DNA from: an uncultured Geobacteraceae bacterium
GTDB taxonomy: Bacteria > Desulfobacterota > Desulfuromonadia > Geobacterales > Pseudopelobacteraceae
Assembly: GCA_903876875.1 (NCBI GenBank)
Contig: CAIRBT010000172.1
Location: 1 to 50,226 of the forward strand
DNA length: 50,226 nt
Reading direction: 5' to 3'
The number at the start of each line of letters is the position of its first letter. The first letter of the stretch is position 1. Under the pieces are notes generated by a model. The model made no database searches and had not been told where the DNA came from. It worked only from the letters and a program-made list of their open reading frames with translations. The translations under genes were made by a program, and so were the position numbers. Of the stretch, positions 27,920-47,991 are shown piece after piece.

Positions 27920-28630
27920 TTATATATCTGTCAACCAGAGCGGTTTCGGTTGCAGGGGATGGTGGCCTGTGATGGCAACGGCAGCAGCATAGTGCTCCGG
28001 TGCGGCAATATCTATAACGTGGAACCGGAAACCGTTCTGATTAATGGTGACACCGTGGGGTGAGTCATAGCTGCCACAGATATCGAAATCCGTACTCCGG
28101 GGGAGAGAAAAGCCCCCTCCTGCCGCTTTTAAACAGGCCTCCCGCCGCACCCAGTACCGATAGAACAGTGCCGCTTGGGCCGCTGTCTCAGTAGCTTGCA
28201 GGTCGGCTAATTCCCGTGGCGAAAACACTAACTGTGCCATTCGGGTCACTGGACATTGCGTATCCATGTATTCCATATCAATACCTACCCCATGGGAGCG
28301 GGTGAAAGCACAGAGCAGCTTGCTACCGGAATGGGCAAGATTAAAGCAGAGCGGAGAGGGTGAATTGGCAAAAGATGGCTTGCCATTCACACCAATGCAA
28401 AGGGCAACCGCCTCCGGCGTGCAGTCAAGATAGCGAGCAAGCAGGGTACGCAGCTTCCAGCGGCTCATTAGAAACTGTTGTCTCGGTTCAGTACCTTTGA
28501 AACAGTCTGCCCGTCGCAACTCTTCAGTGGAAAGGTAGTTTTCATACCAGGATACGTCAGTGGTGAAGTCGGCCAGGTCAAAAGAATACAGATGTATTTC
28601 ATCATGCCGTGGCATGGGAAAGCCCATCAT
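27920..28630 (-). CDS. 4'-phosphopantetheinyl transferase, Sfp type (PfaE role)
   Basis: Transfers phosphopantetheine from CoA to the serine of acyl carrier proteins. The 236-aa protein has the Sfp-type motifs: VNGKPSF (81-87), FNLAHSG (96-102), GVGIDME (114-120, Mg2+ ligands Asp118 and Glu120) and WVRREACLK (160-168, Glu164 and Lys168). It overlaps oleD by 4 nt (ATGA at 28627-28630), so it belongs to the pfa-ole unit, and its likely clients are the three ACP domains of PfaA. This fills the role of PfaE in known PUFA synthases. Some Sfp-type enzymes act broadly, so service to other carriers is possible. Confidence 0.92.
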   Translation of the reverse strand: MMGFPMPRHDEIHLYSFDLADFTTDVSWYENYLSTEELRRADCFKGTEPRQQFLMSRWKLRTLLARYLDCTPEAVALCIGVNGKPSFANSPSPLCFNLAHSGSKLLCAFTRSHGVGIDMEYMDTQCPVTRMAQLVFSPRELADLQATETAAQAALFYRYWVRREACLKAAGGGFSLPRSTDFDICGSYDSPHGVTINQNGFRFHVIDIAAPEHYAAAVAITGHHPLQPKPLWLTDI

Positions 28631-29622
28631 TTGCCGCCGGAGTGCAACCAGGTTTGCAAGCGGAGCAGTCCCTCTGCGATGGAAATGGTCGGCTCATAGC
28701 CAAAATCGGTGCGGGCAGCAGTGGTGTCAAACCAGTGGGCCGTTGACAGCTCATGGGCCACAAAGCGAGTCATGGGGGGCTCCCCCCCCCGCATGAACAG
28801 CTTCCATATTCCCTCGCAGACAATGCCAATTCCGTAGGCAAGTGACGGAGAGATGGTGCCGGTAACCGGGGGGATGTCAGCCGTGGCGAGAATACGGTTA
28901 ACCATCTCCCAGAGGGGAAGCGGTTCGTTGTTACTGATGAAATAACAGTTACCGGCGACGGCACTGCCGGGAAACAGCCTGTCTGCGGCCTGAATATGGG
29001 CCTGGGCAGCATTATCAACGTAGACCGTATCCACCAGGTTGGGACGGTTGCCGATCCTGCGCAGCTTCCCCTTGCTCCCTTTGGCAAGGATGCGTGGTAC
29101 GAGATGATTATCGCCCGGCCCCCAGATGAGATGGGGACGCAGTGAGGTGACCGCCAGTGTGGGGGAATTTGCTCCACATACCATCTGCTCGGCAATCGCC
29201 TTGGTGTGGGGATAATGGGCTTCATAGCGAGACGGATAGGGAAGTGCTTCAGTACCCCCTTCAATGTCAGCGCCGTCAAACACTACGCTGGGGGAACTGG
29301 TGTAGACAAGCCGTGAAATACTATGGTGGTGACAGGCCGCAATGACATTGGCCGTGCCGGTCACATTGGCACGGTAAAACTCCTGGTAACTCCCCCAAAT
29401 CCCCGCCTTAGCAGCAACATGGAAGATAAGGTCACAGCCGGTGGCGGCACGGACAACCGCATCTCGATCCTCAAGATGACCCCGAAACTGCTCAACCCCT
29501 AAGGCAGACAGCTCACCATAGTCACCACGGGAAAAGCTGCACACCTGATCGCCCCGCTGTCGGAGCATACGCACGATGGCACCGCCGAGAAAGCCGCCAC
29601 CTCCGGTGACCAAAACCTTCAT
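28627..29622 (-). CDS. oleD: OleD-like 2-alkyl-3-ketoacyl reductase
   Basis: OleD reduces the 2-alkyl-3-keto acid made by OleA to the 2-alkyl-3-hydroxy acid with NADPH. The 331-aa product is an extended short-chain dehydrogenase (3-beta-HSD type) with GGGGFLG (7-13), HVAAKAGIWG, Ser109/Ser110 in YTSS, and the catalytic YPHTK (Tyr137, Lys141). Start chosen at ATG 29622, which overlaps the oleC stop (ATGA); the TTG at 29643 would add seven residues. A run of nine C on the + strand (28782-28790), read as G9 in the gene at about codon 278, is the longest homopolymer I noted and a possible slippage site. The stop overlaps the transferase start. Confidence 0.92.
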   Translation of the reverse strand: MKVLVTGGGGFLGGAIVRMLRQRGDQVCSFSRGDYGELSALGVEQFRGHLEDRDAVVRAATGCDLIFHVAAKAGIWGSYQEFYRANVTGTANVIAACHHHSISRLVYTSSPSVVFDGADIEGGTEALPYPSRYEAHYPHTKAIAEQMVCGANSPTLAVTSLRPHLIWGPGDNHLVPRILAKGSKGKLRRIGNRPNLVDTVYVDNAAQAHIQAADRLFPGSAVAGNCYFISNNEPLPLWEMVNRILATADIPPVTGTISPSLAYGIGIVCEGIWKLFMRGGEPPMTRFVAHELSTAHWFDTTAARTDFGYEPTISIAEGLLRLQTWLHSGGK

Positions 29623-31256
29623 CGGAGGTGTTCTCCGGCCCAAATGGCAAGTTTTTCACGGAATATTTTAGCGTTATGACGGATATCCACCGGAAAGGAG
29701 GGGTGAAACAAAATGGTACGGATATTCTTTGTGTGGGGGTAGCGGCTTGCCAATTCAATAAGTTCGTTACGCACAATATTATGTGACGCAGTAACCTTGT
29801 CGGCTTCAAGTTCCACGCAGAGCACGGGATGTTGGCTCCCTTTGACACCCACACCTACCAGTGCCGTGCGGAATACGCTGGGGTGACCGTTGAATATTCC
29901 CTCAACCGGAATGGTGAAAAGCGTCTCTTCTGCCGCCTCAACCCGATGGCTTTTACGACCACAAAACCAGACCCTTCCCTGGTTGTCAACGTAGCCAAGA
30001 TCCCCCATACGATGCCAGATTTCTCCGGTGGCGTCGGTGATCTTGGCAAGTTTGGTCGCCTCGGGACGATTCAGATATTCACGGCTGACCTGGGGTCCCC
30101 GCACCACAATTTCACCAACTTCATAGGGGGAAAGTTGTAGCTGGTCGTACCAGAGGGGCACCGGTTCATCGGTGATATGGATGATGGCAAGGGTGATGGT
30201 TGATACCGGCGAACCGACACAGACGCCATGACCTTCAGCGGTTAACGCGGCAGTTTCACCGAGAATTTCCCGACTGCCGATTGAGCAGACCGGTAACGCT
30301 TCAGTGGCACCATAGGGGGTGAAAATTTCTGCGTGAGGCGGTAACAGAGTGGTAAAACGTTGCAGAACGGTTGCGGGAACCGGTGCACCGGCTGATATAA
30401 CCCGTGTTATGGTGGAAAACTTCTCCCCATTAGTTACACCGTAACGGCTCACCCGATTCAAGAGTGCCGGTGAGCCAAACATGGTGGTTGCCGAGTATTT
30501 CGCCGCCGGACCAAATATCTGTTGCGGGTCAACGGTACCGGGGCGGGTAAAATCCATTTCTGGAATCAGTGCGGTCATGCCGAGTGCCGGGGCAAACAGG
30601 GCAAAGAGCGGAAAGGTTGGCAGATCTATTTCACCAGGACGGATATCATAGAGCTCCCGCAGGGTTTCGATCTGGGCGGCAAAGGTACCGTGACTGTATA
30701 CCGCTCCCTTGGGAGATCCCGTACTGCCGCTGGTAAAGAGGATGGCTGCGGTGTCGTGGCGTCCGGTCACCGCCATAGCGGCAGTCGTGCCGACAGCTGA
30801 ACTTCGTATGGAGGTCAGTGGTATTCCTCCCCAGAGGGAGCCACCGCTGACAACGACGGAGATACGGATACTTTTCTTTCCCCAACCGAGGAGCCTGCGA
30901 GCCACATGAGCCTTTGGAGTGCCGATAAATGCTTCCGGTTCCGCCTCGTTCAGGCACCCCTTCAACTGTGGAGCCCCGATGCCCGGGTCGATGAACACCG
31001 GCACCGCTCCCGCTTTGAAGAGGCCAAAGGTAACCATAAACAGCTCCGGTGAGGGGGGAACCAGCAGGGCAACCCGCATACCGGGATGGATGCCGGTTTT
31101 TCTGAAACCGGTGGCCAACAGGGAACTTTCATGATCCAGTTCACGGAAGGTGATAGTCCGGCCATCCCGAGGGAAAATAATGGCTGGGGTATCAGGTTGC
31201 AGATTGGCCATCCGGGCGAGGGGGAGGGCGATATTGACGTTTTCAGCGTCGCTCAT
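29619..31256 (-). CDS. oleC: OleC-like beta-lactone synthetase
   Basis: OleC is an acyl-adenylate-forming enzyme that converts the 2-alkyl-3-hydroxy acid to a cis-beta-lactone using ATP. The 545-aa protein has the AMP-binding P-loop TSGSTGSPKG (175-184), the TPYGATEALPV motif typical of OleC, and the C-terminal hinge region HRMGDLGYVDNQGRVWFCGRKSHRVE. The usual C-terminal catalytic-lysine position appears as RHNAKIFREKLA. ATG at 31256 overlaps the oleB stop by 4 nt and its own stop overlaps oleD. The oleB-oleC-oleD context and the hydroxy-acid-specific family features argue against a generic fatty acyl-CoA ligase. Confidence 0.93.
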   Translation of the reverse strand: MSDAENVNIALPLARMANLQPDTPAIIFPRDGRTITFRELDHESSLLATGFRKTGIHPGMRVALLVPPSPELFMVTFGLFKAGAVPVFIDPGIGAPQLKGCLNEAEPEAFIGTPKAHVARRLLGWGKKSIRISVVVSGGSLWGGIPLTSIRSSAVGTTAAMAVTGRHDTAAILFTSGSTGSPKGAVYSHGTFAAQIETLRELYDIRPGEIDLPTFPLFALFAPALGMTALIPEMDFTRPGTVDPQQIFGPAAKYSATTMFGSPALLNRVSRYGVTNGEKFSTITRVISAGAPVPATVLQRFTTLLPPHAEIFTPYGATEALPVCSIGSREILGETAALTAEGHGVCVGSPVSTITLAIIHITDEPVPLWYDQLQLSPYEVGEIVVRGPQVSREYLNRPEATKLAKITDATGEIWHRMGDLGYVDNQGRVWFCGRKSHRVEAAEETLFTIPVEGIFNGHPSVFRTALVGVGVKGSQHPVLCVELEADKVTASHNIVRNELIELASRYPHTKNIRTILFHPSFPVDIRHNAKIFREKLAIWAGEHLR

Positions 31257-32152
31257 GGGGTCAGATGGCTCCGCTCAAGAAAGGAGGTTATCAGTGGAAT
31301 GACCTCTTCCGGGGCATCCTCCAGAATATAATGACCACAGTCGGCAAATTGATGTAGTTCTGCTTCGGGAAACTGCTTTTGCCATTCGGCACGGAAATGG
31401 TGGTCAAAAACGAAATCCAATTCACCCCAGAGAATCAGGATGGGAAGATGGCGAAATTGTGGCAGAGACGCCGCCACCGAACTGACCAGCTCATACCCTT
31501 TATCCCCCGGTGACAACGGAATGTCCTGTACAAAGCGGAGGGTGGCAATGCGGTTTTTCCAGGAATCATAGGGGAGTTGATAGAGTGCCCGCAGGGGAGC
31601 GGTCATGGGGTGCCGTTTGCATCCCACATAGGAGGCCCCCACACTGAAGGCGTTAGCTCCCCGCACCAACAGGGTGCCGAGCATGGTATCACGGCAGATG
31701 CGTAACCCCAAGGGGAGCGGCTTGCTGGCGGGAAGGTGAAAGGCACCGGTATTCAGGATAACCAGCCGAACGATCCGCTCCGGATGCCGTGCGGCATAGG
31801 CCATGCCGATCATCCCCCCCCAGTCATGCACCACCAGACTAAGGGAGTCGGTGAGACCAAGCTGTTCCAGTAGATATTCAAGGTCATCGACCCGCCGGGA
31901 CAGGGTATACTCGTACTGTTCATCACCCGGTTTGTCGGAAAATCCGCACCCCATATGATCCGGTACGATACAGCGATAGCTGTCACGGAGTGCCAGTACC
32001 AGTTTTCGGTAATAGAAAGACCAGGAGGGGTTGCCATGAACCATTACCACCGGTGGCCCGCTCCCCTCGTCAAGATAGTGGTAAGACAGGTTACCGATGG
32101 CACACCGTTTTCCGGTGAACGGGTATTCCGATTTCAGTGTGACACTCACCAT
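31253..32152 (-). CDS. oleB: OleB-like beta-lactone decarboxylase (alpha/beta hydrolase)
   Basis: OleB opens the beta-lactone and releases CO2 to leave a cis-alkene. It is related to haloalkane dehalogenases. The 299-aa protein has HGNPSWSF (39-46), the nucleophile Asp110 in VHDWGGMIG, WGELDFVFDH for the acid region, and the catalytic His in FADCGHYILEDAPE. The ATG at 32152 overlaps oleA by 7 nt; the GTG at 32149 would give a 4-nt overlap. A C8 run on the + strand lies at 31814-31821. Sequence alone cannot separate it from a haloalkane dehalogenase; the ole context does. Confidence 0.92.
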   Translation of the reverse strand: MVSVTLKSEYPFTGKRCAIGNLSYHYLDEGSGPPVVMVHGNPSWSFYYRKLVLALRDSYRCIVPDHMGCGFSDKPGDEQYEYTLSRRVDDLEYLLEQLGLTDSLSLVVHDWGGMIGMAYAARHPERIVRLVILNTGAFHLPASKPLPLGLRICRDTMLGTLLVRGANAFSVGASYVGCKRHPMTAPLRALYQLPYDSWKNRIATLRFVQDIPLSPGDKGYELVSSVAASLPQFRHLPILILWGELDFVFDHHFRAEWQKQFPEAELHQFADCGHYILEDAPEEVIPLITSFLERSHLTP

Positions 32153-33189
32153 TCCATCCCCAGCATGAGACAGTTAAGGCCGCTGCCGATTCCTAAAAAG
32201 GCCACCTTGTCCTTGGCTTCGATAATATCCCGTTCATCGGCTATGGCCGCCGTCAACGGCAGGGAGACGGTACCCATGTTCCCCAGATATTCAAAGGTGG
32301 TAAAGTCTTTTTCCGGTGGAATGTCGAGTGTCTTGAGAATGGCACTCTGGTGGGCCGAGCCAACCTGATGACAGACCACCCGATCAATATCTTCCGTTTT
32401 CCAGCCGACCTGGGGAAGGAAGGCATCCCAGGTACGGCGACCCAGTTCGATGCCGTAATTCATGACGTTGACACCGTCGGTGGACATGGACTGATCGTAG
32501 CCCCCCTTGCCATCGGGGGTAATACCCCAGAGGCAGAGGCGATGATGTTCGGGGGCGGCCTGAGTTATCCCCCCCAGCAGACGGCGACGGGCAGAGCCGG
32601 AGAAGGAGCCGTCGGTCAACAAGATAGCCACCGCACCGGAGCCGCCGGTCAGGGTAGCGAGGGAGGCGGCAAAATGCTGCATGGTTCGTTCTTCAAGCAT
32701 CTTGGCAATCATGATTTCATTAATTTCACGGGCACTTTCACAGGAGACCACCAAACCGGCTCTGATCTGTCCCAACTCAATGCGATTCGCCACATCAAGA
32801 ATGCCATTCAGCACGCCAAGACAGGCATTAGAAATATCAAAAACGGCGGTTTTGCCACCAATGCCAAGTTTTGAGGCCACCCGGCAGGCGGTGGCCGGCT
32901 CGAACTGTTCACGGCAGACACCGGCATAAATCAACGCCCCTATTTCAGCCGGAGCAATGCCGGTAGCAGAAAGCACTTTTCTGGCCGCAGCAATGGCACC
33001 CGATGACAGCGGATAGCCCGGCTCCCACCACCGCCGCTCACGGATGCCGGTTAACGCCTGTAACTGACCGGGGGCAATCCGAAGGTACCGGTACAACGGT
33101 TCAAGGCGTGTCTCCAGTTCGGCGGTGGTGACGACAACCGGTGCCAGTTCATAACCGAGAGCCTCAATGACTACCTTTTGATACTTCAT
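32146..33189 (-). CDS. oleA: OleA-like thiolase-fold acyl-CoA condensing enzyme
   Basis: OleA performs head-to-head Claisen condensation of two acyl thioesters to a 2-alkyl-3-keto acid. The 347-aa protein is FabH-like but carries OleA features: Cys123 in ISNACLGVLNG, Glu97 in REQFEPATAC (the OleA-specific glutamate), His274 in CHQVGSAH and Asn304 in YLGNMGTVSLP. These line up in order and near-constant offset with Cys143, Glu117, His285 and Asn315 of Xanthomonas OleA. The start overlaps the pfaC stop by 4 nt (ATGA), tying the condensing enzyme to the PUFA synthase that should feed it. Confidence 0.94.
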   Translation of the reverse strand: MKYQKVVIEALGYELAPVVVTTAELETRLEPLYRYLRIAPGQLQALTGIRERRWWEPGYPLSSGAIAAARKVLSATGIAPAEIGALIYAGVCREQFEPATACRVASKLGIGGKTAVFDISNACLGVLNGILDVANRIELGQIRAGLVVSCESAREINEIMIAKMLEERTMQHFAASLATLTGGSGAVAILLTDGSFSGSARRRLLGGITQAAPEHHRLCLWGITPDGKGGYDQSMSTDGVNVMNYGIELGRRTWDAFLPQVGWKTEDIDRVVCHQVGSAHQSAILKTLDIPPEKDFTTFEYLGNMGTVSLPLTAAIADERDIIEAKDKVAFLGIGSGLNCLMLGMEW

Positions 33190-36100
33190 GTATTCTCCAT
33201 AGATACAGTGAAATCATTCATCTGATAGATTAACTTTCCATCAACCTCCAGAAAACCATCGGCGGTGATGACGCGCTGCAAATCATCTACTGCGGTAATC
33301 CAGCAATGCACCGTTACCTGACTGTTGGACGGCACAACCTGTCCCCGATATAACCAGCGATGGCTGCGATTCAGGGCAACGGCTGTCAATGACGTGCCAT
33401 CCTGCCATCCCCAGCGGCGATATGCCACATATTTCATCAATTGAATAAAAGATTCCAGCCCCAGTGAACCGGGGGTAACCGGATCTTCATAAAAATGTGC
33501 CTGGAAAAACCACTCATCGGGATTAACATGTTTGATGCCGCGAATATACCCCAGACCGACGGGGCCTCCATCTGCCACAAACAGCTCCACCTCATCAATC
33601 ATGCGCAGCTGTGTCTCAGGGAAGGGTGCTTCAGTCGGGTAGGGGAGGCTTTCACCCCGGCCGATCTCGTCACTGGCAGGTTGATACGGCTTGCCGTCAC
33701 GAATACCGACCTGCTGTGACAATGCTTCCTTGGCAAAGAAACCGAACATGGTCTCACCTTCGTACAACACTCCACGACTGTCGGCAACGGTAAAATCATA
33801 TTCCTGAATAATCATACCACCGCTGGTGGCAACTTTCTTTAAAGTGGCACAACAGGTGAGCAGTCCGGTCAACGGGGTGACAGTGCGGTGCTGGATGGCC
33901 GTGCCCCCCAGATTACGGAAGGAAATGTCCGTTGCACTGGTGAGTGCAGAGCCGACATAGGCTGCCAGCCAGCCGCACGGCTGCAGGGCCGCTTCCAGAA
34001 GAACCGAAAACGGCATCCGCTGCTGACGTTCTACGGCAAAGAACCAGTCATCGACCGGTAGGTCGTACTGGGCTTCTACCCGGGCTCCGGCAACCATCTG
34101 CCAGGGGGCGCCGGTAACAGCAGTGACCCGATCCATAAACTGGAAGGGTGGTCCCGGAAGCCGGGCTATTTTTCGGTCGGCATCAAAGGGGAGATAGCGA
34201 TCACCAAAACCCTCGGACGGCTTGCCGTTACTGTAGGCAAGGATCTGTTCCTTGGTGTAGAGCGGTGGCTTAACGTTCGTTGCCGCGTCACGATGTGATG
34301 GTGACCGCCAGAGCTGTTCCAGGGTTTCACGGCTGGTGCCGGTCAAACGGGCAGACATACTGGTAATTTCGACAATGGCCTTGCCATCGGCATACATCAG
34401 TGCGTCAACGATGGCATAGGGCTCGGGGCCATAGCCCAGTTCCCGAATAGTAACCTCGTAGGTGACGGTTTTGGTGCTTTCAAGAACCTGGCCACGGCAG
34501 CAGAGTTTACTGGCGACCCCCGGTACCGGCTCCCACACTGCCTGGCTGCCATCGGCAATCCAGCCAAGACGAAGCAGATAGATGCGCAGGGTATGCATAC
34601 AGCATTCATACATCAGGGTACCCGGCATGACCCGGTCATCGACAAAGTGACAGGTAATGAACCAGTCATCGGGATAAATGTCGGCTTCGGCGCGGATAAA
34701 GCCGATCCCGCACCGGCCGCCAGTCGGATCAAGGTCGGTAACCCGGTGTACCAGACGCATCTTGCCGCCCGGTATGGTCAACGGAGTGGCAATGGCAAGC
34801 GACTCAAAGAGTACACCAAAGCAACCGGCCAGATCACCGGCACGCAGTCGATCCAACTGCTGTGCATCATACTGCTCCCGCTGCTGAGGCACCAGCTCCT
34901 GCCAATCGACCGGGCGGATACCGGTGGTCGGTCTCAGGTCGAGGGCGGGGCGTACTATCCCCTTTCCGGCATCAAGCTCCTGTTGGCTGAAAAAACCGGC
35001 ACAGCCGTCTCGCATGGAGAGGAGCGGCTGTCCATGTACCGTTGCTTCAAAAAAGAAACGGAACAGCCAAGTATCCCCCTGTCGAAAAAAACGTTCAATG
35101 CGAATGTCATACTGGATCGTTTCACCCGGTACGGGGAGTCCCCGATGAAAGGTCACCACCGCATCAAGCAGTCTATAGACCGCCAAACCTCGGGTTATAA
35201 AGTCGATGCCGAGGTAGCCGGAAAGGAATAAATCGGCCTGCCCCGCTTCAACGGCGATACAGGTTGGAATCCTGTCACCGTCAAGGTACCAGGCTCCCCG
35301 GGTAATATCGTGCTCCGTGATAACCCGTCCGGAGGTCATGGAGCGGGGTTCCCCCTCTACGGCCAGAATTCGGTCAACCAGCATGAGCGGTTCATCGGGA
35401 AGCCGGACGCGAGTTGGAAAGCTATCAACCGGTGCAAAATCAAGTCCAAGCATACGGCCAACGGAACCACGGGCAAATTCAAAGCAGGCGCTACGGTCAA
35501 AAGCGACCGGTACTGGAACAGGCTGCTCAATACAGAGCGGTGCCTCATCACCGATCAGCTGTCGGAGTGACATTTCCAGGGTAATTGCTTCGGCCATCGA
35601 TCGGGTAATGGTCTCACTAACCGCCAAAAATGTCGTGTGGGCGGCAATCCGTGATTCCTGAACACGCATCATCTCCTGAATCAGGGAATCGGTCCCACTG
35701 TGGGGTGCGACAGGAGCAGCTATCGTTGGAACAATTTGTTGTGTGGTCGCTGCCACCACCTGATGTACCACCGGTTGGCGACGGGGTGGCGGGGTGGGGT
35801 GATATGGCGCACCGCCAAGTGGTACCGACAGCAGACGGCTGCCCTTAACCGGAGCAGACTGCTCCCCGGTGGTAAACAGCGAAGAAAGATCTACCGGAAC
35901 CTGTTCGGCAATCAGGTTGGCAAGGAGTCGTAACAAACCGGAGACCGCTTCGACGCCGTTCTGACAGGCAGATCGTGCCAGATGGGGGCGCTCCCCCAGA
36001 ATGCGACCAATCATGCGGCTGCAAGAGGCTCCCGGACCCATTTCAAGGAATAACCGCACACCATTGTCATAGGCAGCGTTAATGACATCAGTGTAGTTTA

Positions 36101-39100
36101 AACCGTGGAGTGCCTGCCCGAGAATTGAAGCAGCAGCCGTTTCACGGCTCACGGAGTACTCTTTGCCCGTAACACCGCTGTAGTACGTGACCCCTTCAGG
36201 TGGGGTCGTAGGAAAGAGATGGAGATCATGGTAGGGTGTTGCCACTTCAGCGGCAACCTCACAATGAACCGTGGTAACCCCCTGCAACGGGAAAAAGTTT
36301 TTACCGAGGGTGGCAACCAGTGCCGAAAGCTCCGTTGCATCGCCCCCGATGACACATTCATCGGGAGTATTGACAATCAGCAGGTAGGTATGGGGATAGG
36401 CGTCAAGGGCAGTACGCACCTCCTGCTCCGGTGCAGCGATGACGCCAAGACTCCACCGCACCTTCGTAGCAGCGGGTAGCTGCCAGGCGGCATGGGCGGC
36501 CCGGCAGTCACCGGCGAGATCTTCGGTGAAGAGAGTTGATTCCTTCATGCGGGTGTACATGGCATCCCGGTCACACCAGGCACGAAGAGCAAAGAGGGCG
36601 GCTGATTCTCCGAGGCTGTAGCCGATGGCTGACGTTGGCTCCACGCCAAAGCTACGCACCAGATCGCTGACGGCGCAGCCGGTGGCCACCTGACCGAAGA
36701 TGACGGCACGGTGATCCTCATTAATGCGGGTAGCGGGGGTACCATTCCAGAACAGCTCAGGCTGGAACTGACTACGGAGCAGCAGGCTTTCACTCTGCTG
36801 CCGTCGAAGTATGTGGGGCCACCGGCTGAACAGCTCCATCCCCATGGCGGGGTAATGATTTCCCGAACCGGGAAAGACAAAGGCGATGTGACCGGTTGCA
36901 CCCAGGGGATTCGGCGTGTAGAACAGTCGATCTCGCAGTGATGGAGGGAGTTCGGGAGTCATACCGGTAGTAACGGCAGCTATTCCGGCCTGCAAAAGGC
37001 TTACCAGCTCATCCCGTCCCCGGGCCACCAGAGCAATGCGGCACTGCTTGTGGGGCAAGTCATGGAAGCGCTGGAAACAACGGTGGGCAACTGCGGAAAA
37101 ATCACTCTCTTCAGAAGACGCCACTTCTGTTACCAGCTGATCCAGTGCGGATTTCAGCGTGGCGACACTCTGAGCTGCCACAGGGAAAATACATTCACTG
37201 CCGATGCCACGGCAGGGGGAGGTGATACCTTTTTCAGCGTTTGCCGCACCATATTCCTCAAGCACCACATGGCAGCAGGAACCGTCGATACCCCGTACGC
37301 TAACCCCTCCCTGACGCGGGCCATCGGCACGATTATGCAGCCAATAGCGGGGAGAACGGGGAAAATGAAGTGCGGAGTTCTCGGGGAGTGACGGAGCAGT
37401 AACAAGTCCCCGACAACCGGGTATGACTTCATGGTACAGTGCCAGTGAACCACGCACCAGTGAGACAAGACCCGAAGCAGCACCGCTGTGACCGATATCC
37501 CCCTTGATACTGGACACGGCGCAGGAACGTTCCGGAGTACCATGGCCGGTAAAAAAACTGGAGAGGGCGTCGATTTCCTGTGAGTCACCGCACAGGCTGC
37601 CATCGGCAGTGGCCTCAACATAACCGGTAGAGGATGGCGAAACCGCAGCATCCCGATAAGCCTTTTCCAATGCACGGCCATAGGTTGCCGAAGTAGTCTC
37701 ACCGGCGAAACCACTGACACTTCCCATGCCCCGAATGACGGCATAGATTCGATCTCCATCACGTTCCGCATCGACAAGCCGTTTCAGCACCACAGCGGAA
37801 GCCCCTTCACCGATGATAACGCCGTCGCTCTCCGTGGCAAACGGGGTACCAGTACCGGTGGCGGAACAGGGGAGTAAGCCATGTTGCCCCAAAACCGCCC
37901 GCACATCACCGGCCAGATCGACCGCCCCAACCAGTGCCCGGTCAAGCTCATGGCTTTGCAATTGACGAATGGCAACCTCAAGGGCACGGATACCGGAACT
38001 GTCTTCGGATGAGAGCGTAAAGCTAGGCCCGCCGATCCGGAATTCACGGGCAATACGACTGGCAACCACGCTCCCTAAGGCACCCATGGTACGGTTGGCG
38101 GTCAGTGGAGCATGAACCGCATCCCGCAGTTCGGCATTCCAGCTATCACGTTCGGCAGAGGTGAGTTCGGTGCCCAGGTGCCGAGCCCACTGGGCTGTCT
38201 GCCCGGCCATTGCCCAACGGAGATTGAAGTTAGTACTGTTCAGATCAAGTGCAATACCGATAAACACACCGGTTGCCCCAGTAGTGTCGGCACGGCAACC
38301 GGCATCAGCAAGAGCCTCAGCAGCCGTCTGCAGCATAAGAAGCTGCTGGGGGAGCATCTCCTCCATTTCACGGGGGGGGATACGAAAGCGGGTGGCGGGG
38401 AGGGTAACCCGCTCACGGTAATAACCGGCGAAGGGGGTACCGTCCCCCTGCTCGTTACGGAACCAGTTGCTCTCCGGCACACCATGCCAGTTGGGTGGTG
38501 CCACCGGAGAGCACTCCGCATCACCGCCGAACACCCGCTCCTGAAAATCGGCCATGGTCTGCCAGGGACCAAAGGAGGCATTCATGCCGATGATGGCGAT
38601 GGCCTCGGGTTGAGTATGTGGCTGTGCAAAAGTCTCGGTAGTCAGATTTGTTGGAAACCATTCTTCAAGTAACAGATGAGCATTAATACCGCCGAAACCA
38701 AAGGCACTGACGGCGGCCCGTCGTGGCGTCACTTCCGTACGACGTTGCCACGGCAGGGGCTCTTGCAGCACCCGGAACGGACTGTCATCTAGTTTCATGC
38801 CGGTCTGGGCAGTAGTGAAATTGGCAGTGGGGGGGAGGGTGCCATGGCGGAAGGCGAGGAGTACCTTGGTAACGGCAGCACTGCCGGCCGCCGTCAGCAG
38901 ATGCCCTATATTAGATTTGACCGAACCGATAACACAGCGGTCACCGGTGGGGACATGGTCTCCCCATAATTGCCGGAGACTGGCAACTTCAACCCCATCA
39001 CCCACCGGTGTACCGGTGGCATGGCATTCAATAAGATCCACATCGGACGGCTGCCAACCGGCACTGTCATAGGCGCGTCCCATTGCCCGTAACTGCCCTT

Positions 39101-40001: not shown

Positions 40002-43000
40002 TAAGCTTCATCCCTGGTGAGTGCCACCTGATTACGCTGAAAAGCCTGTTGCAATGAGGGGTCAATAACGCACTCATAGGTTTCCATGCGGGCAATCAGC
40101 TTGCCGGAGGATCGGTCAAGAAATTCGATATCAGCTGTGGCACCATGGCTCCGTTCCGCAGTAACCTTAATGATAATTTTTGCTCCATCGCGGGGAAACT
40201 GTTCTTGATATTGACGGTAACTTCCGGCAAAAGTCGGCAGTGAGCCGCAGCCAAACCGTTCAAAACTCCAGAGTATCATCAACTGAAAGGCACAATCTAC
40301 AATCAGCGGGTCGGTGAGCCAGACGGTACGTAAGGGGAATTTAATCCATTCCGAAGGTTTACCCGCACTGTTGACCTGTGCGGCAATACCTGCTGCAGAA
40401 CAGCCACTCACACAGGTAATGCCCTGAAGAGTTGCTCCATGAAAGAGCCGTCGATTGTCATATACCGGACTGTTTTCAGCTTTGTACGGGTCTAATGACA
40501 GCTCTGTAAGAGAGGGGGTGCCTGACGGTAGCTTCGTGGCAAGCACGATCTCGGCGGTTGCATGGAGGACGCGGCTGCCGTTATCGGCGACACCAATCAG
40601 CTCCACCGGAACCACAAAGAGTGAAGCCAGCTTTACCGCCTTACCTGACATAATCTGGAGGCTGCACGAAGCGTGCTGTTCAAAAATGACCCCCTTACAG
40701 ATACGCACATTGTTGAAACCATGAAACCTGAAGCCTGGATTACCATGGAGGGCACCATGGGCAAGCCATTCAACAATAACTGCCATCGGCAGCACTGCTT
40801 TACCATCAATAATATGTGAGCAGATAAAGGGAAAATCATCACAATTCAGATTCAGACTGTAGGCCTCTTCCGTTGCTTTACCAACTGTAACTGTGCGGCC
40901 ATCCTGTTCCCCGGCGCCGGCAAGCACAACTATTTCAACCGGCTCACCCTGGGTGGTTATTTCATGGGCAAGCAGTTCACCACCGGCACCCAGATCGATA
41001 AGGCCGATCCCCTCGCCAGAGAAGAGTTTTTTCAGTGCAGGAGTTACCATGCCACCATCCCACGGCCCCCAGTTGATACTGACAACCCGGCAGTTGGGGC
41101 GGAGACGGGATTCTGCCTCTGCATACTTGTTAAGAATTTCGTTGGCCACGCCGTAATCAAGCTGACCGCTCCGGCCGAAACGACCGGTTGTTGAGGAAAA
41201 GAGTGCCATGAAGCGAAGGTCATCATCGGCCGTTGCCGTTAACAATGAACGGAGTCCGGCAACTTTGGTGCTGTATACCATAGCAAACTGTTCAAGAGTT
41301 TTATCACCAATAAGCCGGTCGGCAAGTACACCGGCACCATGTACCACCCCTCTTATGGGGCCGTATGTCCGGCGGATGTCTGCACAGAGCTCAGCAACCA
41401 TCTCCCCGTCACGGATATCGACGGAACGATAGACCCCATGGCCACCTGCCCGCTCAATGGCAACCAGGGTTGATTTTAATTCACGGCCGGCCATAATGGC
41501 ATGGTATCGTTCTTCAACCTCACGGGGATGGAGCTTGTCAGTGGCATGTTCCATAATGCCGCGTTTGATCTGACTTTCTTCGGAGAGTCCGGCCAACCAG
41601 GGGAGCTCGGGAAGTGGTTCGGGACTGCGTCCCACAAGTACCAGCAGTGGCTTATGAATTCGCGACAGGGCGATGGCAGCAGCTGCGGTGACTCCCCTGC
41701 CTCCGCCGGTAATGATGACCACTTCACCTGGAGTGAATGGCGATGCTGCAAGTGATGCCGTATTGGGGAGTTCACTGATGGTCAGCGTGCTACGTCCGGC
41801 GGGTGTCAAACCAATTTCAACCGAAGCAACTTTAAATAATTCTGCAGCAACTGCTGCTGCTTCTGCCAGCGGATCGCTAAAGAGACCGATATCAATGGCC
41901 TTACAGGTAACGTCGCTCCATTCATGGGCCGCCGTCTTAACCAGTCCGGCCAACCCTCCTGACAATGGATCACACAGAGTACTGTTGACTCCGCAGCCAA
42001 ATGAGCCGTCAAGCCGTGAAACGGTGGCAAACAATGCCCCACCGTTTTCGGCGGCACGCTGCAGAGCCGGAGCAAGGCTCTTCATGAGTAAAAAAGAATT
42101 TTCAAAAAATGTATCGGTGGCACCATCGGCAGGAGTACAAATGACCAGTCCGGAAAAATCAGCCGGAGCGATATTCATGAATGCTTCCTGAATTTCGAGC
42201 AGCAGGACGGAGTGTCCCCGTGCTTTCAGCAGGCTGCACAGCTCCAGGGAAAAAGACGAACCATCATTGGTAACCCACAAGGTACCGTTGCCGGCTATCC
42301 GTATCGACTCAGGTGAATCGGTGAGCGGTTCTGCACTAATGGTGCTTCTTCGTAAGGGTGCCACGGTATGTTCAGTATGGGGTTCCCGTACTGTTGAGAG
42401 CGGTTCCGGCAACGGGATGGTGCTGCTCACCGTGACACGTGTGCCGGGGGTTAAAAAACGGGCTATTTCTCCCAACGTATGGAGCGTGCCCAGATGCTCG
42501 GGGCCGATAACTGGAGAACCAGGAAGTCGCTCCTGCAGCGCGGAAAGGATCTCCACTCGTTTGATGGAATCAATGCCCAGATCAGATTCCAGCCCCATAT
42601 CCAGTTCCAGCATCTCCACCGGGTAGCCGGTCTTCTCACTGACCACTTCGAGTAGTGCCTTGGTACTGCTGTCGGCGTCGCCAGTCTCAGCAGAGGGTGT
42701 TGCAGCGGCAGAGCCTGCACCAAGAAAGGTGGCTATTTCCCCCAGGGTATGGAGGGTTCCAAGTTGTTCCGGGCCGATAACCGGGGCGGACGGGAGCCGT
42801 TCCTGCAGTGCGGAGAGAATTTCCACCCGTTTAATTGAATCTATGCCCAGATCCGAATCCAGTCCCATCTCCAGTTCCAGCATTTCCACCGGATAGCCGG
42901 TCTTCTCACTGACCACCAGCAACAATGTTTCGATTACAGGGGAAGCGGTGCCAATTCCGGCAGCAGCAGTGGTAGAGGCAGTGGCGGCAACGAGTGCTTC

Positions 43001-46000
43001 GCTGCCAACAGAGAGGAATGCTGCAATTTCACCAAGGGTGTGGAGAGAACCGAGCTGTTCCGGTCCAATGATCGGGGCGGTCGGCAACCGTTCCTGGAGT
43101 GCGGAGAGGATTTCCACCCGCTTGATGGAATCAATGCCGAGATCCGAATCCAGCCCCATCTCCATTTCCAGCATCTCTACCGGATAACCGGTTTTTTCAG
43201 CGATTACAGAGAGTAACGCTTCCGCTACCGTGCTACGCAGTAATGTAGTCAGAGGTGGGGAAACAGCAACGGTGGTGACAGGGGCAGGGGGGATGGCCTG
43301 TGCGACAACGGCAGAAACCGCTGGAACTGTTTGGGAGGGTGCGGCGGCTACCGGAGGTGCTACGTAACTCCCCCCCTGAAGGATCCGTTGCTGCTGTTCA
43401 AGCAGCAGTTGGATCGTTTTACCCGCTGCATCCTGACCTTCCAAAAATTTACGATGCAATTGCGCTGTTTCATCCTGCATCCGCATGAGGGCAGTCATCC
43501 CCTCACGGGTTACCCGGAGGGATTCCGTCGCAACATCGGGAGAAAGTGACGGTGAGGCTGAGTGAAGAGGGACAATTGACGGTGCCGATGCCGTTACCGG
43601 AGCTATCACGGTGGCACGGGGCGCAACCGGAGGCCGTTTCGCCTTTGGCTTTACGTAGTTAGCACCGTTCAAATTGATGGTAAGCAACGGTTTTTTACCG
43701 GTGATAGCCGATGGAACGGTGTAGGTATCATCCCACTTGGTGAGGTCAATTCCATAGCCGGTGACGGCCAATTGAGACAAACAGCGTGCCAGATCGACAA
43801 TGCCGGAACGTTTACCCGATGAGGAGTCAAGGGATACCACCGCATGAGGACGACCGGCAAGAATCGCTCCGACCAGACCGGCCAAACGTGATCCCGGGCC
43901 GATTTCCACAAAAGTTCTGATACCGGCATCGTACATGGCTTCAATTTCATCGACGAATTCAACCGGCAGTGCCAACTGCCCGGCAAGGAGTGCCTTCGCC
44001 TCCTGTTCATCCACCGGATAGCTGGAAGCGGTACTGTTTGCATAGACCGGCAACGCCCCGGCAGACAGGGGAATTGATGCCAGTGCCGCCTTGAACGGAA
44101 TGGCCGCGTCAGCAACTAAGGGACTATGGAAAGCGGCTGCCACCGTCAAGGGGGTGCAGGCAAGGGAACGGTTTTTAGCTGCTGCCGCCGCCCGGGCGAT
44201 TTCACTGCTGCTGCCCGACAGAACCGCCTGATTCGGAGAGTTGCGGTTGGCAATTACCAGATCCAGTTGCTCTTCGTCAACCAACTTCTGGACGAGTGGT
44301 AACGGTGCAGAAACCGCCAGCATGGTTCCCTTGTCGCCCGTTCCTGCGGCCATCAGTTGTCCACGCAGACGGGACAATGCGTGAAAAGATGCTTCATCCA
44401 GTCGTTCTGCTGCACAGAGGGCGGTCAATTCACCATAGCTGTGACCAGCAGCGGCATCGGGTGAAAACCCGAAGGAAGCGAGCAGTCGCATGGCTCCCAG
44501 ACTCACCGCACCAATGGCCGGTTGGGCTATCTGAGTGTCGCGTAAGGCGTTTTCATCGGCTTCTTTGGCATCGGTACCGAACGAAGAGGGGGGATAGATC
44601 AAATCGACAAGACTCTGGCCGGAGGCAGCAGAAAAGGCGTGATCAGCCGTTTCAACCGTTGTAAACATTGCGGGAAAGCTGCATACCAGGTCCCGGAGCA
44701 TACCGGTATACTGGGCACCCTGACCAGGAAATAGTGCGGCAACCGGCTCTGGAGTTGTTCCAACTACATAACAGATGCCATCGGGAGTATGCCACGATAG
44801 TTCCGGTTTGCTGCGTAGCATGGTGCGTGCAGTTGTACAGAGAGCGGTCAAATTTGATTTGTTACATTCGAGGGTTATGGCAAGCCTACAGTGTGCGGTC
44901 GCCTCAAAGATGCGACGGTTTGTCGCTGCCAGAATCCGAATATCGCTCCAGCTCTGTATGCCTTCAGCATCGGCAAGCATTTTGTCCAGGGAGGCCACAT
45001 CGGGTGCGGAAAAAGGGAGTATCTGCACCGTGCCATCCCAGTCGATTTCCGTGGCCTTCGGTTGATACTCTTCAAGCACCACATGAAAATTTGAACCGCC
45101 AAAACCGAGGGCACTGACACCGGCCCGTCGAGGTTGACCATTCTTTGCGATCCAGGGGCGTTTGGTTCCGGACAGATAGAACGGCGATCCTTCACCGGAA
45201 ACCTCCCGTAGCGGTTCCTGCACCTTGATCGTGGGGGGGAGTACCTTGTGATGAAGGGCAAGAGCAGCTTTAATGAGACCAGCCGCGCCGGCCGCAGCCT
45301 TGGTATGGCCGATCTGGGACTTGACTGAACCGAGGGCACACCACGGCTTATCAGCAGTACCAAAGACTTCCCGCAGTGCCGAAACCTCCACGGCATCTCC
45401 GACTTTTGTTCCGGTTCCGTGGGCTTCAATCAGCCCGATACTGTCCGGTGCAACGCCAGAGCGCTGGTAGGCATCTCGAAGTGCCTTTTTCTGACCGGTG
45501 GCACTGGGGGTGTAAATCGCTTCACCTTTACCGTCACTTGAAGAGCCGACGCCACGGATGACCGCATAGATTCTGTCGCCGTCCCGCTCCGCATCGGCAA
45601 GACGCTTGATAACCATGATGCCAAGACCTTCGCCGAGTATGGTGCCGTCCCCCGCTGCATCAAAGGGTTTGGCATCACCACTGGGGGAGAGGGCCGGCGT
45701 CTTGCTGAAACACATGAACATGAAGATATCATTAAAGGTATCTATGCCACCGGTAACCACCATGTCCGATTTGCCGGTTGCCAACTCCAGGGAAGCGAGA
45801 TGGAGGGCACTCAGTGAACTGGCACAGGCCGCATCCACCACACAGTTAGTCCCGCCAAGATCAAACTGCTTACTGATTCTGCCGGCCACCACATTGCCGA
45901 GTAGACCGGGGAAGGAGTTTTCTTGCCAGGAAACATAGGAGTCAGAGATCCGTTGCACCACATCGTCTGCCGTAGCGTCATCCACACCGGCATCCTTGAG

Positions 46001-46471
46001 GGCAGAACGCCAATGGGGATGACCAAGGCGAGCGGCCAGCGGCACAACCAGTTCGAGGGTACCGGTAACGCCGAGAATCACACTAACGCGATCACGATCA
46101 TAGACTCTGTCGGCCCCGTAACCGGCATCCTTTAACGCCTGACCGGTGGCCACAAGCCCCAGCAACTGGGAACTGTCGATGGCTTCAAGGGTGGAGGGTG
46201 GGATATTGTAATCCATCGGATTAAACGGTACATCGGAGATAAATCCACCACGACGTCCATAGGTCATGTCAGGAGTTTTCGGGTTCTTATCGTGGTAATC
46301 CTCTACCCGCCAGTGACTGGCCGGAATATCCGTAATGGCGTCAATCCCTTCACGTATGGTTGCCCAGTAGGTGGTGCTATCCTCTGCTTTGGGGAAAAGA
46401 CAGCCTATTCCTATAATTGCAAGCGGTGAAAAGCCGGGAACGGTTGGGCCGTTGGCATTATCATGTGTCAC
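40001..46471 (-). CDS. pfaA: PfaA-like PUFA synthase subunit: KS-AT-3xACP-KR-DH
   Basis: A 2156-aa megasynthase. Ketosynthase (about 12-470) has Cys216 in DAACASSL, His351 and His389. Malonyl-type acyltransferase (about 575-885) has FPGQGAQ and Ser678 in GHSYGE. Three tandem ACPs have the phosphopantetheine serine in LGIDSIKRVEIL at 1115, 1212 and 1302. The ketoreductase (about 1395-1815) has TGGGRGVT and the Tyr1773 region LDYGVANE. A C-terminal polyketide-synthase-type dehydratase (about 1870-2140) has His1886 in HIIDGKAVLP and Asp2059. The start is GTG at 46471, strongly supported by AAGGAG 8 nt upstream and a 4-nt overlap with pfaD. PUFA synthases usually carry more ACPs (five or more in marine bacteria), so three is a low count. 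Confidence 0.94.
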   Translation of the reverse strand: MTHDNANGPTVPGFSPLAIIGIGCLFPKAEDSTTYWATIREGIDAITDIPASHWRVEDYHDKNPKTPDMTYGRRGGFISDVPFNPMDYNIPPSTLEAIDSSQLLGLVATGQALKDAGYGADRVYDRDRVSVILGVTGTLELVVPLAARLGHPHWRSALKDAGVDDATADDVVQRISDSYVSWQENSFPGLLGNVVAGRISKQFDLGGTNCVVDAACASSLSALHLASLELATGKSDMVVTGGIDTFNDIFMFMCFSKTPALSPSGDAKPFDAAGDGTILGEGLGIMVIKRLADAERDGDRIYAVIRGVGSSSDGKGEAIYTPSATGQKKALRDAYQRSGVAPDSIGLIEAHGTGTKVGDAVEVSALREVFGTADKPWCALGSVKSQIGHTKAAAGAAGLIKAALALHHKVLPPTIKVQEPLREVSGEGSPFYLSGTKRPWIAKNGQPRRAGVSALGFGGSNFHVVLEEYQPKATEIDWDGTVQILPFSAPDVASLDKMLADAEGIQSWSDIRILAATNRRIFEATAHCRLAITLECNKSNLTALCTTARTMLRSKPELSWHTPDGICYVVGTTPEPVAALFPGQGAQYTGMLRDLVCSFPAMFTTVETADHAFSAASGQSLVDLIYPPSSFGTDAKEADENALRDTQIAQPAIGAVSLGAMRLLASFGFSPDAAAGHSYGELTALCAAERLDEASFHALSRLRGQLMAAGTGDKGTMLAVSAPLPLVQKLVDEEQLDLVIANRNSPNQAVLSGSSSEIARAAAAAKNRSLACTPLTVAAAFHSPLVADAAIPFKAALASIPLSAGALPVYANSTASSYPVDEQEAKALLAGQLALPVEFVDEIEAMYDAGIRTFVEIGPGSRLAGLVGAILAGRPHAVVSLDSSSGKRSGIVDLARCLSQLAVTGYGIDLTKWDDTYTVPSAITGKKPLLTINLNGANYVKPKAKRPPVAPRATVIAPVTASAPSIVPLHSASPSLSPDVATESLRVTREGMTALMRMQDETAQLHRKFLEGQDAAGKTIQLLLEQQQRILQGGSYVAPPVAAAPSQTVPAVSAVVAQAIPPAPVTTVAVSPPLTTLLRSTVAEALLSVIAEKTGYPVEMLEMEMGLDSDLGIDSIKRVEILSALQERLPTAPIIGPEQLGSLHTLGEIAAFLSVGSEALVAATASTTAAAGIGTASPVIETLLLVVSEKTGYPVEMLELEMGLDSDLGIDSIKRVEILSALQERLPSAPVIGPEQLGTLHTLGEIATFLGAGSAAATPSAETGDADSSTKALLEVVSEKTGYPVEMLELDMGLESDLGIDSIKRVEILSALQERLPGSPVIGPEHLGTLHTLGEIARFLTPGTRVTVSSTIPLPEPLSTVREPHTEHTVAPLRRSTISAEPLTDSPESIRIAGNGTLWVTNDGSSFSLELCSLLKARGHSVLLLEIQEAFMNIAPADFSGLVICTPADGATDTFFENSFLLMKSLAPALQRAAENGGALFATVSRLDGSFGCGVNSTLCDPLSGGLAGLVKTAAHEWSDVTCKAIDIGLFSDPLAEAAAVAAELFKVASVEIGLTPAGRSTLTISELPNTASLAASPFTPGEVVIITGGGRGVTAAAAIALSRIHKPLLVLVGRSPEPLPELPWLAGLSEESQIKRGIMEHATDKLHPREVEERYHAIMAGRELKSTLVAIERAGGHGVYRSVDIRDGEMVAELCADIRRTYGPIRGVVHGAGVLADRLIGDKTLEQFAMVYSTKVAGLRSLLTATADDDLRFMALFSSTTGRFGRSGQLDYGVANEILNKYAEAESRLRPNCRVVSINWGPWDGGMVTPALKKLFSGEGIGLIDLGAGGELLAHEITTQGEPVEIVVLAGAGEQDGRTVTVGKATEEAYSLNLNCDDFPFICSHIIDGKAVLPMAVIVEWLAHGALHGNPGFRFHGFNNVRICKGVIFEQHASCSLQIMSGKAVKLASLFVVPVELIGVADNGSRVLHATAEIVLATKLPSGTPSLTELSLDPYKAENSPVYDNRRLFHGATLQGITCVSGCSAAGIAAQVNSAGKPSEWIKFPLRTVWLTDPLIVDCAFQLMILWSFERFGCGSLPTFAGSYRQYQEQFPRDGAKIIIKVTAERSHGATADIEFLDRSSGKLIARMETYECVIDPSLQQAFQRNQVALTRDEA
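42449..43228 (-). repeat. Three tandem acyl carrier protein domains in pfaA
   Basis: ACP1 (about 43228-43010), ACP2 (42934-42722) and ACP3 (42658-42449) share the core LGIDSIKRVEILSALQERLP and the flanking EKTGYPVEMLE. They are joined by Ala/Ser/Thr-rich linkers. Protein identity is high but synonymous positions differ, so the duplication is not recent. Confidence 0.92.
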
Positions 46472-47991
46472 GGGAGATACTCCTTGATCAGTCGGTCTTC
46501 GAGCGGCTCTATGGTGAAAGCGGCAGGAAGCCGGATGTTTTGAAAACGGATGAAATTACCCCGGGTAACGAGGGCGGCACCGTAGAGCAGAGCGCGCGCC
46601 ACCGTGGCAACCCGGCGTTGTTCCGGTGCTTCGAGAAAACTTCCGGCTGTCCACTCGTTAAAAGTACCCATGGCAGGTCCACACCAGATTTGATAGTCCA
46701 TGGTACGATTGGCGGCACCATCTTTGGCCCAGTGGGCAGCCTGTCCCAGATACCACCGAAACAGGAGAGCCATCAGATGCTTTGGTTCCCGCTCTGCCCG
46801 CTCTACCTGACGGGGATCACGGGTGAGAAAAAACTGCCGTGTGTCACGCCAGATATCGGTAAAAGTAGCCTGAAAGACACTCTTCTCAAGCTTCTCACGC
46901 TCTGCCGGTGGAATCGACTCAATGCCGTCATAGGTTCGGTACAGTTCATAGAGACGGGCAGCTCGCATGGGAAACATGGTGCCCCGCTTCAAAACCTGAA
47001 CGTTAACACCCATTTCAAACATATCTGCCGCAGGAGCCATGGTCACATCGGCCTGCCGGGTTGCGGCAAGCATTTTTCTCACGGCATCGGAGGTGCCGGA
47101 TTCCACACATGCCTGGTTGACCGAACCGGTCATGATATAGGCGGCGCCCATGGCGAAGGCAGCAGCGGCGGCAGTCGGGGTGGCAATGCCACCGGCAAGA
47201 CCGACCCGCAGCTGCACCGGATACGCATATTTCTTCTGGAGACGATGTGCCAGCGAAGCGATGGTTGGAAAGAGAGCCATGGCCGGACGGTTATCGGTAT
47301 GTCCACCAGAATCGGCTTCGGCGGTAATTTCCTGAGCCATGGGGATAGTAGCTGCCAAGGATACCTGTTCCGCTGTTAGTGCCCCTTCTTTAAATAGTTG
47401 CTGTAAAAACTTGTCCGGTGGGGGGGAAAAAAATCGTTCTGCCAGCTCTTCGCGGGAAACTTTGGCAATGATCCGATTGGGAGTAACTACGGCACCGTCC
47501 TCACTACGATGAATTCCATGGGTACGATAGCGAACCAACGGCAGCGTGAGGGCGAGAAATGCTGACGCCTCAACCAGACGGACTTTTTTTTCAATATACA
47601 GGTTGGCAAGTGCCGCTTCAAGATCAGGTTCCTGGGGGGAATGAATCAGATTAAAACCGTAGGGAACACCGGCAGCGGCTAACTGTGCAACGGCAGCTTC
47701 TACCGTCTGATAGGGCAACCCCGCCGCCCCGAAAAAACCGAGCATACCGGCCTTCCCCAACTCTTCAGCCATGGCAACGGAGCTGATTCCTTTTGCCATT
47801 GAACCACCGATATAGGGATATCTGATGCCAATTTCTCGACAAAACTGTTGATCGCCCAACTGTTCCGGGGGAAGAGGGGGGATTTCCAGCGTTCTCGTAA
47901 CGGCATCAGAGCCGGTGACGGTTACCTGAAGAGGAACGGTAACATTGAGAAACTGTTCCAAAACTACGTTGTCTAACGTGGATGGTTTCAA
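46468..47991 (-). CDS. pfaD: PfaD-like trans-acting enoyl reductase
   Basis: PfaD is an FMN-binding, nitronate-monooxygenase-fold enoyl reductase that works in trans with PfaA/PfaC. The 507-aa protein shows the family's GIRYPYIGGSMAKGISS, LGFFGAAGLP, VPYGFNLIHSPQEP, EASAFL, the flavin-phosphate region GGIATPTAAAAAFAMGAAYIMTGSVNQA, and MFEMGVNVQVLKRGTMFPMRAARLYELY. The only reachable start is TTG at 47991; no in-frame ATG lies nearby and an in-frame TGA closes the frame just upstream. An ATG at 48005 with a five-residue ORF in another frame ends on this TTG. It is the first gene of the unit, whereas PfaD is last in Shewanella-type clusters. Confidence 0.93.
   Translation of the reverse strand: MKPSTLDNVVLEQFLNVTVPLQVTVTGSDAVTRTLEIPPLPPEQLGDQQFCREIGIRYPYIGGSMAKGISSVAMAEELGKAGMLGFFGAAGLPYQTVEAAVAQLAAAGVPYGFNLIHSPQEPDLEAALANLYIEKKVRLVEASAFLALTLPLVRYRTHGIHRSEDGAVVTPNRIIAKVSREELAERFFSPPPDKFLQQLFKEGALTAEQVSLAATIPMAQEITAEADSGGHTDNRPAMALFPTIASLAHRLQKKYAYPVQLRVGLAGGIATPTAAAAAFAMGAAYIMTGSVNQACVESGTSDAVRKMLAATRQADVTMAPAADMFEMGVNVQVLKRGTMFPMRAARLYELYRTYDGIESIPPAEREKLEKSVFQATFTDIWRDTRQFFLTRDPRQVERAEREPKHLMALLFRWYLGQAAHWAKDGAANRTMDYQIWCGPAMGTFNEWTAGSFLEAPEQRRVATVARALLYGAALVTRGNFIRFQNIRLPAAFTIEPLEDRLIKEYLP

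Follow-up and report, generated by a model that had tools for sequence, protein, structure and literature searches.

A compact pfa/ole operon of the Geobacter-Pelobacter kind in an uncultured Geobacteraceae bacterium

Known pfa and ole systems and the window locus

We are interested in an operon that joins the genes of a polyunsaturated fatty acid (PUFA) synthase (pfa) to those of head-to-head olefin biosynthesis (ole). It lies on a 50,226-nucleotide stretch of DNA, called the window below, from an uncultured Geobacteraceae bacterium (assembly GCA_903876875.1, contig CAIRBT010000172.1). In Geobacter bemidjiensis, pfaD, pfaA, pfaB, pfaC, oleA, oleB, oleC, oleD, and pfaE are described as lying in tandem, and the organism makes the polyene C31:9 (Yoshida et al. 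2016, PMC4882568). A Type I synthase, characterized by a pfaBC fusion, has been described in Desulfuromonas, Geobacter, Pelobacter propionicus, and a planctomycete; ole genes are often linked to it and a role as olefin precursor has been proposed, its stand-alone product being left open by the authors (Shulse and Allen 2011, PMC3098273). For Shewanella, Allemann et al. (2019, PMC6463001) inferred that OleA takes its chains from the acyl carrier proteins (ACPs) of the Pfa synthase; an E. coli strain lacking acyl-CoA synthetase activity produced the 31:8 ketone when given OleA together with the pfa genes. The same paper describes adjacent pfa and ole operons in Photobacterium profundum SS9 and derives the olefins of Xanthomonas from fatty acid synthase (FAS).

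The window locus consists of eight consecutive open reading frames (ORFs) on the minus strand, from position 47991 down to 27920 (aa, amino acids):

46468..47991, minus strand: pfaD, enoyl reductase, 507 aa, uncertain TTG start (TIGR02814, 612 bits, cut-off 449)
40001..46471, minus strand: pfaA, with ketosynthase (KS), acyltransferase (AT), three ACP, ketoreductase (KR), and PS_DH domains, 2156 aa (TIGR02813, 1607 bits, cut-off 1010; Pfam domains)
33186..40001, minus strand: pfaBC fusion, with KS, chain-length factor (CLF), AT, and FabA-type dehydratase (DH) repeats, 2271 aa (Pfam)
32146..33189, minus strand: oleA, head-to-head condensing thiolase, 347 aa (PDB matches)
31253..32152, minus strand: oleB, haloalkane-dehalogenase-like beta-lactone decarboxylase, 299 aa (Abhydrolase_1; VVHDWGG and CGH motifs)
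29619..31256, minus strand: oleC, beta-lactone synthetase, 545 aa (AMP-binding; PRK09274, 724 bits, cut-off 478)
28627..29622, minus strand: oleD, 2-alkyl-3-oxoalkanoate reductase, 331 aa from the ATG at 29622 (YPHTK motif)
27920..28630, minus strand: Sfp-type phosphopantetheinyl transferase (PPTase) in the pfaE position, 236 aa (ACPS Pfam domain above cut-off)

This locus is very probably a Type I pfa/ole operon like those of Geobacter and Pelobacter, making a long-chain polyene hydrocarbon that is most likely C31:9. The gene content, order, and overlaps, the OleA catalytic residues, and the class-wide co-occurrence of the two systems are direct observations. The synthase has three tandem ACPs in PfaA and a PfaD enoyl reductase, both proteins scoring over curated cut-offs, and the OleABCD set is complete, with the oleB, oleC, and oleD genes beside oleA. 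As in Type I, pfaBC is a single 2271-aa ORF (KS, second KS, AT, FabA repeats), and the host belongs to the Deltaproteobacteria of the Geobacter/Pelobacter/Desulfuromonas group, as judged from the nearest named OleA; we found no difference from Type I in the text descriptions of that type (PMC3098273). The cluster of G. bemidjiensis Bem, compared here through its published description (PMC4882568, section 4.1), has the same gene order and enzyme set, although pfaB and pfaC are named separately in that review, whereas the window has one ORF, like Type I. An earlier note on this DNA had labeled that ORF pfaC(AT); the gene is real and is properly the published pfaBC fusion. The note had rightly contrasted the locus with the separate pfa and ole loci of Shewanella, but the novelty that it implied for the arrangement is ruled out by PMC4882568 and PMC3098273, which describe it already, and the SS9 operons are adjacent. 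Since these two papers and PMC6463001 cover the linkage, the hydrocarbon role, and the ACP hand-off, all three are in print. The note is a correct, careful observation of a known system, of which the locus is an ordinary member because gene order and product have been published for G. bemidjiensis.

PfaA contains three GIDSI phosphopantetheine sites. The first KS of PfaBC carries the DAACASS cysteine and the second KS region is without an active-site cysteine (chain-length factor); the AT motif is GYSLG, and the AT region matches pfaB_fam at 113 bits, under the cut-off of 144. PfaD matches the PfaD structure 6lkc in the PDB (E-value 1E-165), and the top matches of OleA are 3fk5 and 3row (E-value approximately 1E-55), presumably both Xanthomonas OleA. 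The catalytic residues are intact, as the earlier note had stated: E97, C123, H274, and N304 of OleA are kept in 55/55 aligned rows, and the KS, AT, KR, DH, OleB, and PPTase motifs were all found in the operon protein sequences. OleC and OleD likewise carry their expected motifs, and the four OleA residues are the presumed catalytic Glu, Cys, His, and Asn. Cys123 of OleA is named in PMC6463001.

Gene overlaps in the operon and in its relatives

The seven junctions of the operon, read from stop and start codons, are all overlaps, of 4, 1, 4, 7, 4, 4, and 4 nucleotides (nt) from pfaD to the PPTase gene; pfaA thus shares 4 nt with pfaD and 1 nt with pfaBC, and oleA shares 4 nt with pfaBC. The eight co-directional genes and the seven values agree with the earlier note, given the oleD ATG at 29622: the mechanically assigned TTG 21 nt earlier changes the oleC/oleD overlap from 4 to 25 nt. 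The 5' end of pfaD is uncertain because its first 60 codons offer TTG starts only, and no clear Shine-Dalgarno sequence was seen by eye. Overlaps of 1 to 8 nt occur at 7/7 operon junctions (6/7 with mechanical starts) versus 1/14 of the other co-directional junctions in the window, the latter taken on mechanical starts (Fisher p-value 7E-5 for 7/7, 9E-4 for 6/7); the comparison is rough because four of the 14 have longer overlaps, from 13 to 91 nt, that may reflect miscalled starts. The eight genes form one tight operon.

For the relatives, we used 80 loci, the best of 554 that were confirmed, and counted junctions only in rows with a matched N-terminus, with starts set by rule; pfaD/pfaA is not countable in this way. 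Where OleA is at least 74% identical to that of the window, overlaps occur at pfaA/pfaC in 15/30 rows, pfaC/oleA in 19/39, oleA/oleB in 24/38, oleB/oleC in 10/28, oleC/oleD in 22/24, and oleD/PPTase in 14/16. The corresponding counts for the more distant loci are 3/18, 4/30, 13/32, 23/30, 28/29, and 5/16. The window operon sits at the tight end of this range.

Among the same 80 loci, the nearest named isolates by OleA are Pelotalea chapellei (87% identity), Trichlorobacter thiogenes (82%), and Geomonas (80%); G. bemidjiensis is presumably also a relative of the host. Outside the Desulfuromonadia, which the 80 loci also cover, pfaC stands directly before oleA in planctomycetes (Aquisphaera, Singulisphaera, and two metagenome-assembled genomes, MAGs) and in MAGs titled Opitutus, Elusimicrobia, Hydrogenedentota, KSB3, and Betaproteobacteria, where the names come from record titles and MAG contigs may be misbinned. 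One of the planctomycete MAGs (L125) has the order pfaA-pfaC-oleA-oleB-oleC-oleD-PPTase, with pfaD found in that genome, and its overlaps are 4 nt at pfaA/pfaC, 4 nt at pfaC/oleA, and 7 nt at oleA/oleB. The nearest relative of all is a sister species (G043), with identities of 98% for OleA, 89% for oleB, 87% for oleC, and 81% for oleD. Divergence within the operon is very uneven: in the same comparison pfaD is 87% identical, pfaA 78%, pfaC 80-87%, and the PPTase only 52%.

Co-occurrence of PfaC and OleA and the two OleA branches

Across 277 genomes of the class, 156 have matches to both PfaC and OleA, five to OleA alone, five to PfaC alone, and 111 to neither (Fisher p-value 5E-64, which ignores kinship, related genomes not being independent). 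In the window's family (76 genomes), OleA is found in 44, PfaC in 46, and PfaD in 47; in its genus (39 genomes), 23 have both, two have PfaC only, and 14 have neither. Both PfaC-only genomes of the genus stop at a contig break, and one of the 14 without either (G021) has pfaD and a portion of pfaA where its contig ends. In the PfaC-only genomes G036, G047, G131, and G156, the locus ends at, or within approximately 350 bases of, the contig end. An apparently decayed pfaC beside an intact oleA in G023 was dropped, since the contig ends inside pfaC. Among 72,556 plasmid records searched with OleA by tblastn, none matched at an E-value of 1E-30.

The comparison of pfaC-oleA synteny suggested by the earlier note upheld the order, since 124 of the 152 oleA places share contig and strand with pfaC, but not a universal tight junction. 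Within the window's family, pfaC precedes oleA in 45/46 places, and in 40 of these oleA lies no more than 20 nt from where the pfaC match ends. Family f4, which holds Geomonas- and Geobacter-like genomes according to the OleA tree, has a gap of 5 to 410 nt (30/31 places), compared to the 4-nt overlap in the window. The order is widely conserved; the tight overlap is not. Because genomes of the class mostly have both PfaC and OleA or neither, because the order is conserved, and because ACP transfer has been concluded for Shewanella, the synthase appears to feed OleA, as the note had proposed. Its suggestion of an ACP hand-off gains support by analogy from the direct transfer that Allemann et al. 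concluded (PMC6463001).

Several observations weigh against the favored reading of the locus. G126 has pfaC without oleA in the next 4.4 kb and has no OleA match in its genome, and five genomes (G100, G103, G133, G203, G227) have OleA without a PfaC match. The pfaC-oleA gap in family f10 is 3 to 11 kb (6/10 places), and among the rows listed pfaC is on the oleA contig in 1/4 places in f22 and 0/3 in f23; tight coupling is not required, because linkage is loose in some related families. A PPTase relative is found in 31/76 family genomes (E-value 1E-6) and hence is not a constant part. OleB scores under the cut-off for NCBIfam dehalogenase models, OleC reaches 642 and 632 bits with olefin beta-lactone synthetase models (both under their cut-offs), OleD 450 and 417 bits with OleD models (cut-off 580), and the PPTase 136 bits with a HetI-like model, also under cut-off. 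These scores may be those of divergent family members, without proving specificity. Coupled translation, too, would be a deduction from the overlaps alone.

Some of the looser loci contain other genes. In G126 (L134:1-4450), the place of oleA after pfaC is taken by a 117-aa ORF and a large ORF that looks GGDEF/EAL-like by eye. Five genomes of genus g49, family f12 (G125, G127, G128, G132, G134), have a gap of approximately 1.5 kb between pfaC and oleA, which in G127 (L047:11052-12515) contains a pyridine nucleotide-disulphide oxidoreductase gene. G109 (L045:1862-12914) has approximately 11 kb with cytochrome c7-like and integrase-core genes between the two, perhaps an insertion into an ancestral unit.

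We also sampled 398 genomes from the phylum of the MAG titled Betaproteobacteria (presumably Pseudomonadota), with an OleA cut-off of 1E-30. OleA was found in 17: ten at 56-64% identity to the window OleA, seven at 35-37%, and none between. PfaC is present in eight of the ten genomes with this pfa-type OleA and in 0/7 with the Xanthomonas-type (Fisher p-value 0.002); the two exceptions are G452 and G557. In five of the eight, which are presumably Shewanella-like, OleA is 59-60% identical to that of the window, and PfaC is only approximately 32-35% identical over the matched stretches and is separated from oleA by more than 180 kb or placed on a different contig. According to the literature, Shewanella and Photobacterium likewise make C31:9 with a Pfa-fed OleA; they differ from the window in a separate pfaB, the Shewanella loci lie apart, and eicosapentaenoic acid (EPA) is made as well. 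Xanthomonas OleABCD shares the four enzymes and the OleA catalytic residues with the window, but it is FAS-fed and its OleA, 34-37% identical in the sampled genomes, falls in a separate branch.

An OleA tree of 55 of the 118 rows (47 of the pfa branch and eight Xanthomonas-type) splits the pfa-partnered from the Xanthomonas-type sequences with support of 100/100. The separating branch is very long, at five changes per column to each side of the root. A warning from the tree program, which names L164, points out that long branches meet there. The pfa branch includes two rows from genomes without a PfaC match and two more, L119 and L124, that lie outside the PfaC test. Thirty-five columns, one of them a gap, separate the groups: each has one state in all eight Xanthomonas-type rows and another in at least 95% of the 47 pfa-branch rows. 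These differences rest on few independent sequences because three of the eight are near-copies. The eight pfa-branch rows inspected have an insert of approximately ten residues after Cys219, which Xanthomonas-type OleA lacks. The split, the insert, the 35 columns, and the pfaC-oleA adjacency in other phyla are modest additions to the known picture. In the titles and abstract openings of the papers listed, nothing stood out as having already described coupled translation or a distinct OleA subfamily, which is weak evidence of absence; searched by term alone, the G. bemidjiensis genome paper (PMC2996986) lacks olefin, polyketide, and polyunsaturated, and an OleA survey (PMC7064751) lacks PUFA, Shewanella, and Geobacter. 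It is tempting to speculate, though we think it somewhat more doubtful than probable, that pfa-operon OleA is a separate subfamily drawing polyunsaturated chains from synthase ACPs and kept to at least two very different PUFA synthase types across several phyla, that the OleA sequence alone would predict the acyl source, and that Type I operons make only hydrocarbon and no membrane PUFA.

The predicted pathway and its product

In the pathway we propose, the PPTase would arm the three ACPs of PfaA, and PfaA, PfaBC, and PfaD would then produce a short, polyunsaturated acyl group, most likely 16:4n-3. A pair of these would be joined head to head by OleA, which probably receives them directly from the ACPs. 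OleD would reduce the condensation product, OleC would close the beta-lactone, and OleB would decarboxylate it; the resulting polyene hydrocarbon would be long-chain and most likely C31:9. From the literature come the Ole chemistry, C31:9 as the product of G. bemidjiensis, and the ACP hand-off of Shewanella; by analogy, the window strain would have the same product, the same route, and hydrocarbon as its main output.

The earlier note regarded the synthase as dedicated to hydrocarbon. Such a role is plausible, as no AGPAT domain was found (Pfam scan, E-value 0.001) and the genome has one PfaC match and one PfaD match; some esterified PUFA may be made alongside. The missing AGPAT domain also rules out identity with the myxobacterial Type L synthase (Aetherobacter pfa1-3; PMC4882568, section 2.1), which shares a pfaD homolog upstream and an AT inside the pfaC-like protein, but ends in AGPAT and has its PPTase at another locus.

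The most serious alternative, though an unlikely one, is a two-purpose synthase that makes full-length PUFA (EPA- or docosahexaenoic acid-like) for phospholipid while OleA taps the 16:4 intermediate. Shewanella is described as doing both (PMC6463001), and the stand-alone Type I product left open in PMC3098273 would leave room for it. However, neither the AGPAT domain nor any thioesterase family was found by Pfam among the eight operon proteins, and only 5/161 class genomes with PfaC lack an OleA match, four of them at a contig end. Less likely still is a polyene of another length or double-bond number than C31:9: length control by KS/CLF is not readable from sequence, and the low PfaC identity to the five genomes with a synthase apart from oleA would allow it, but C31:9 is the product in G. 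bemidjiensis, whose genes are arranged alike (PMC4882568). That the linkage is incidental, OleA working on ordinary FAS acyl-CoA, seems very improbable: the catalytic residues are identical in both kinds of OleA and Xanthomonas olefins are FAS-derived (PMC6463001), yet PfaC and OleA come and go together and the window OleA sits in a mostly pfa-partnered branch, far from Xanthomonas OleA. Equally improbable is a pathway halted at the ketone or beta-lactone by an inactive OleB or OleC, which the sub-cut-off scores with the OleB and olefin-specific OleC models might suggest, but the motifs of both enzymes are present and all four ole genes are kept in G043.

The co-occurrence survey suggests that the PUFA synthase in this class exists mainly for hydrocarbon; if true, this would bear on the role of polyene hydrocarbons in anaerobes. 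The published picture is left unchanged by the finding itself. With its eight genes, the locus is a compact candidate for obtaining C31:9-type polyene from anaerobes, and a handy test bed for ACP-to-OleA transfer.

In 2-kb steps, G+C is 0.53-0.58 in the operon (27920-47991) versus 0.45-0.53 across the rest of the window, and G+C at third codon positions of oleA, oleB, and oleD is approximately 0.61-0.63. Upstream, also on the minus strand, lie a purM gene (NCBIfam search) and, before pfaD, a formyltransferase (purN-like) gene; in the 149 nt that separate this gene from pfaD there is a single promoter-like match, not above chance. The flanking genes matched the sister species G043 alone among the compared loci, a weak test of shared genomic location because most of these loci do not extend beyond pfaD. 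Right after the PPTase gene is a 137-aa ORF (27474-27887) without a Pfam match, which among the compared loci matched G043 alone (70%). Further downstream, 25275-27359 encodes a multihaem cytochrome with an MtrC/MtrF-like match.

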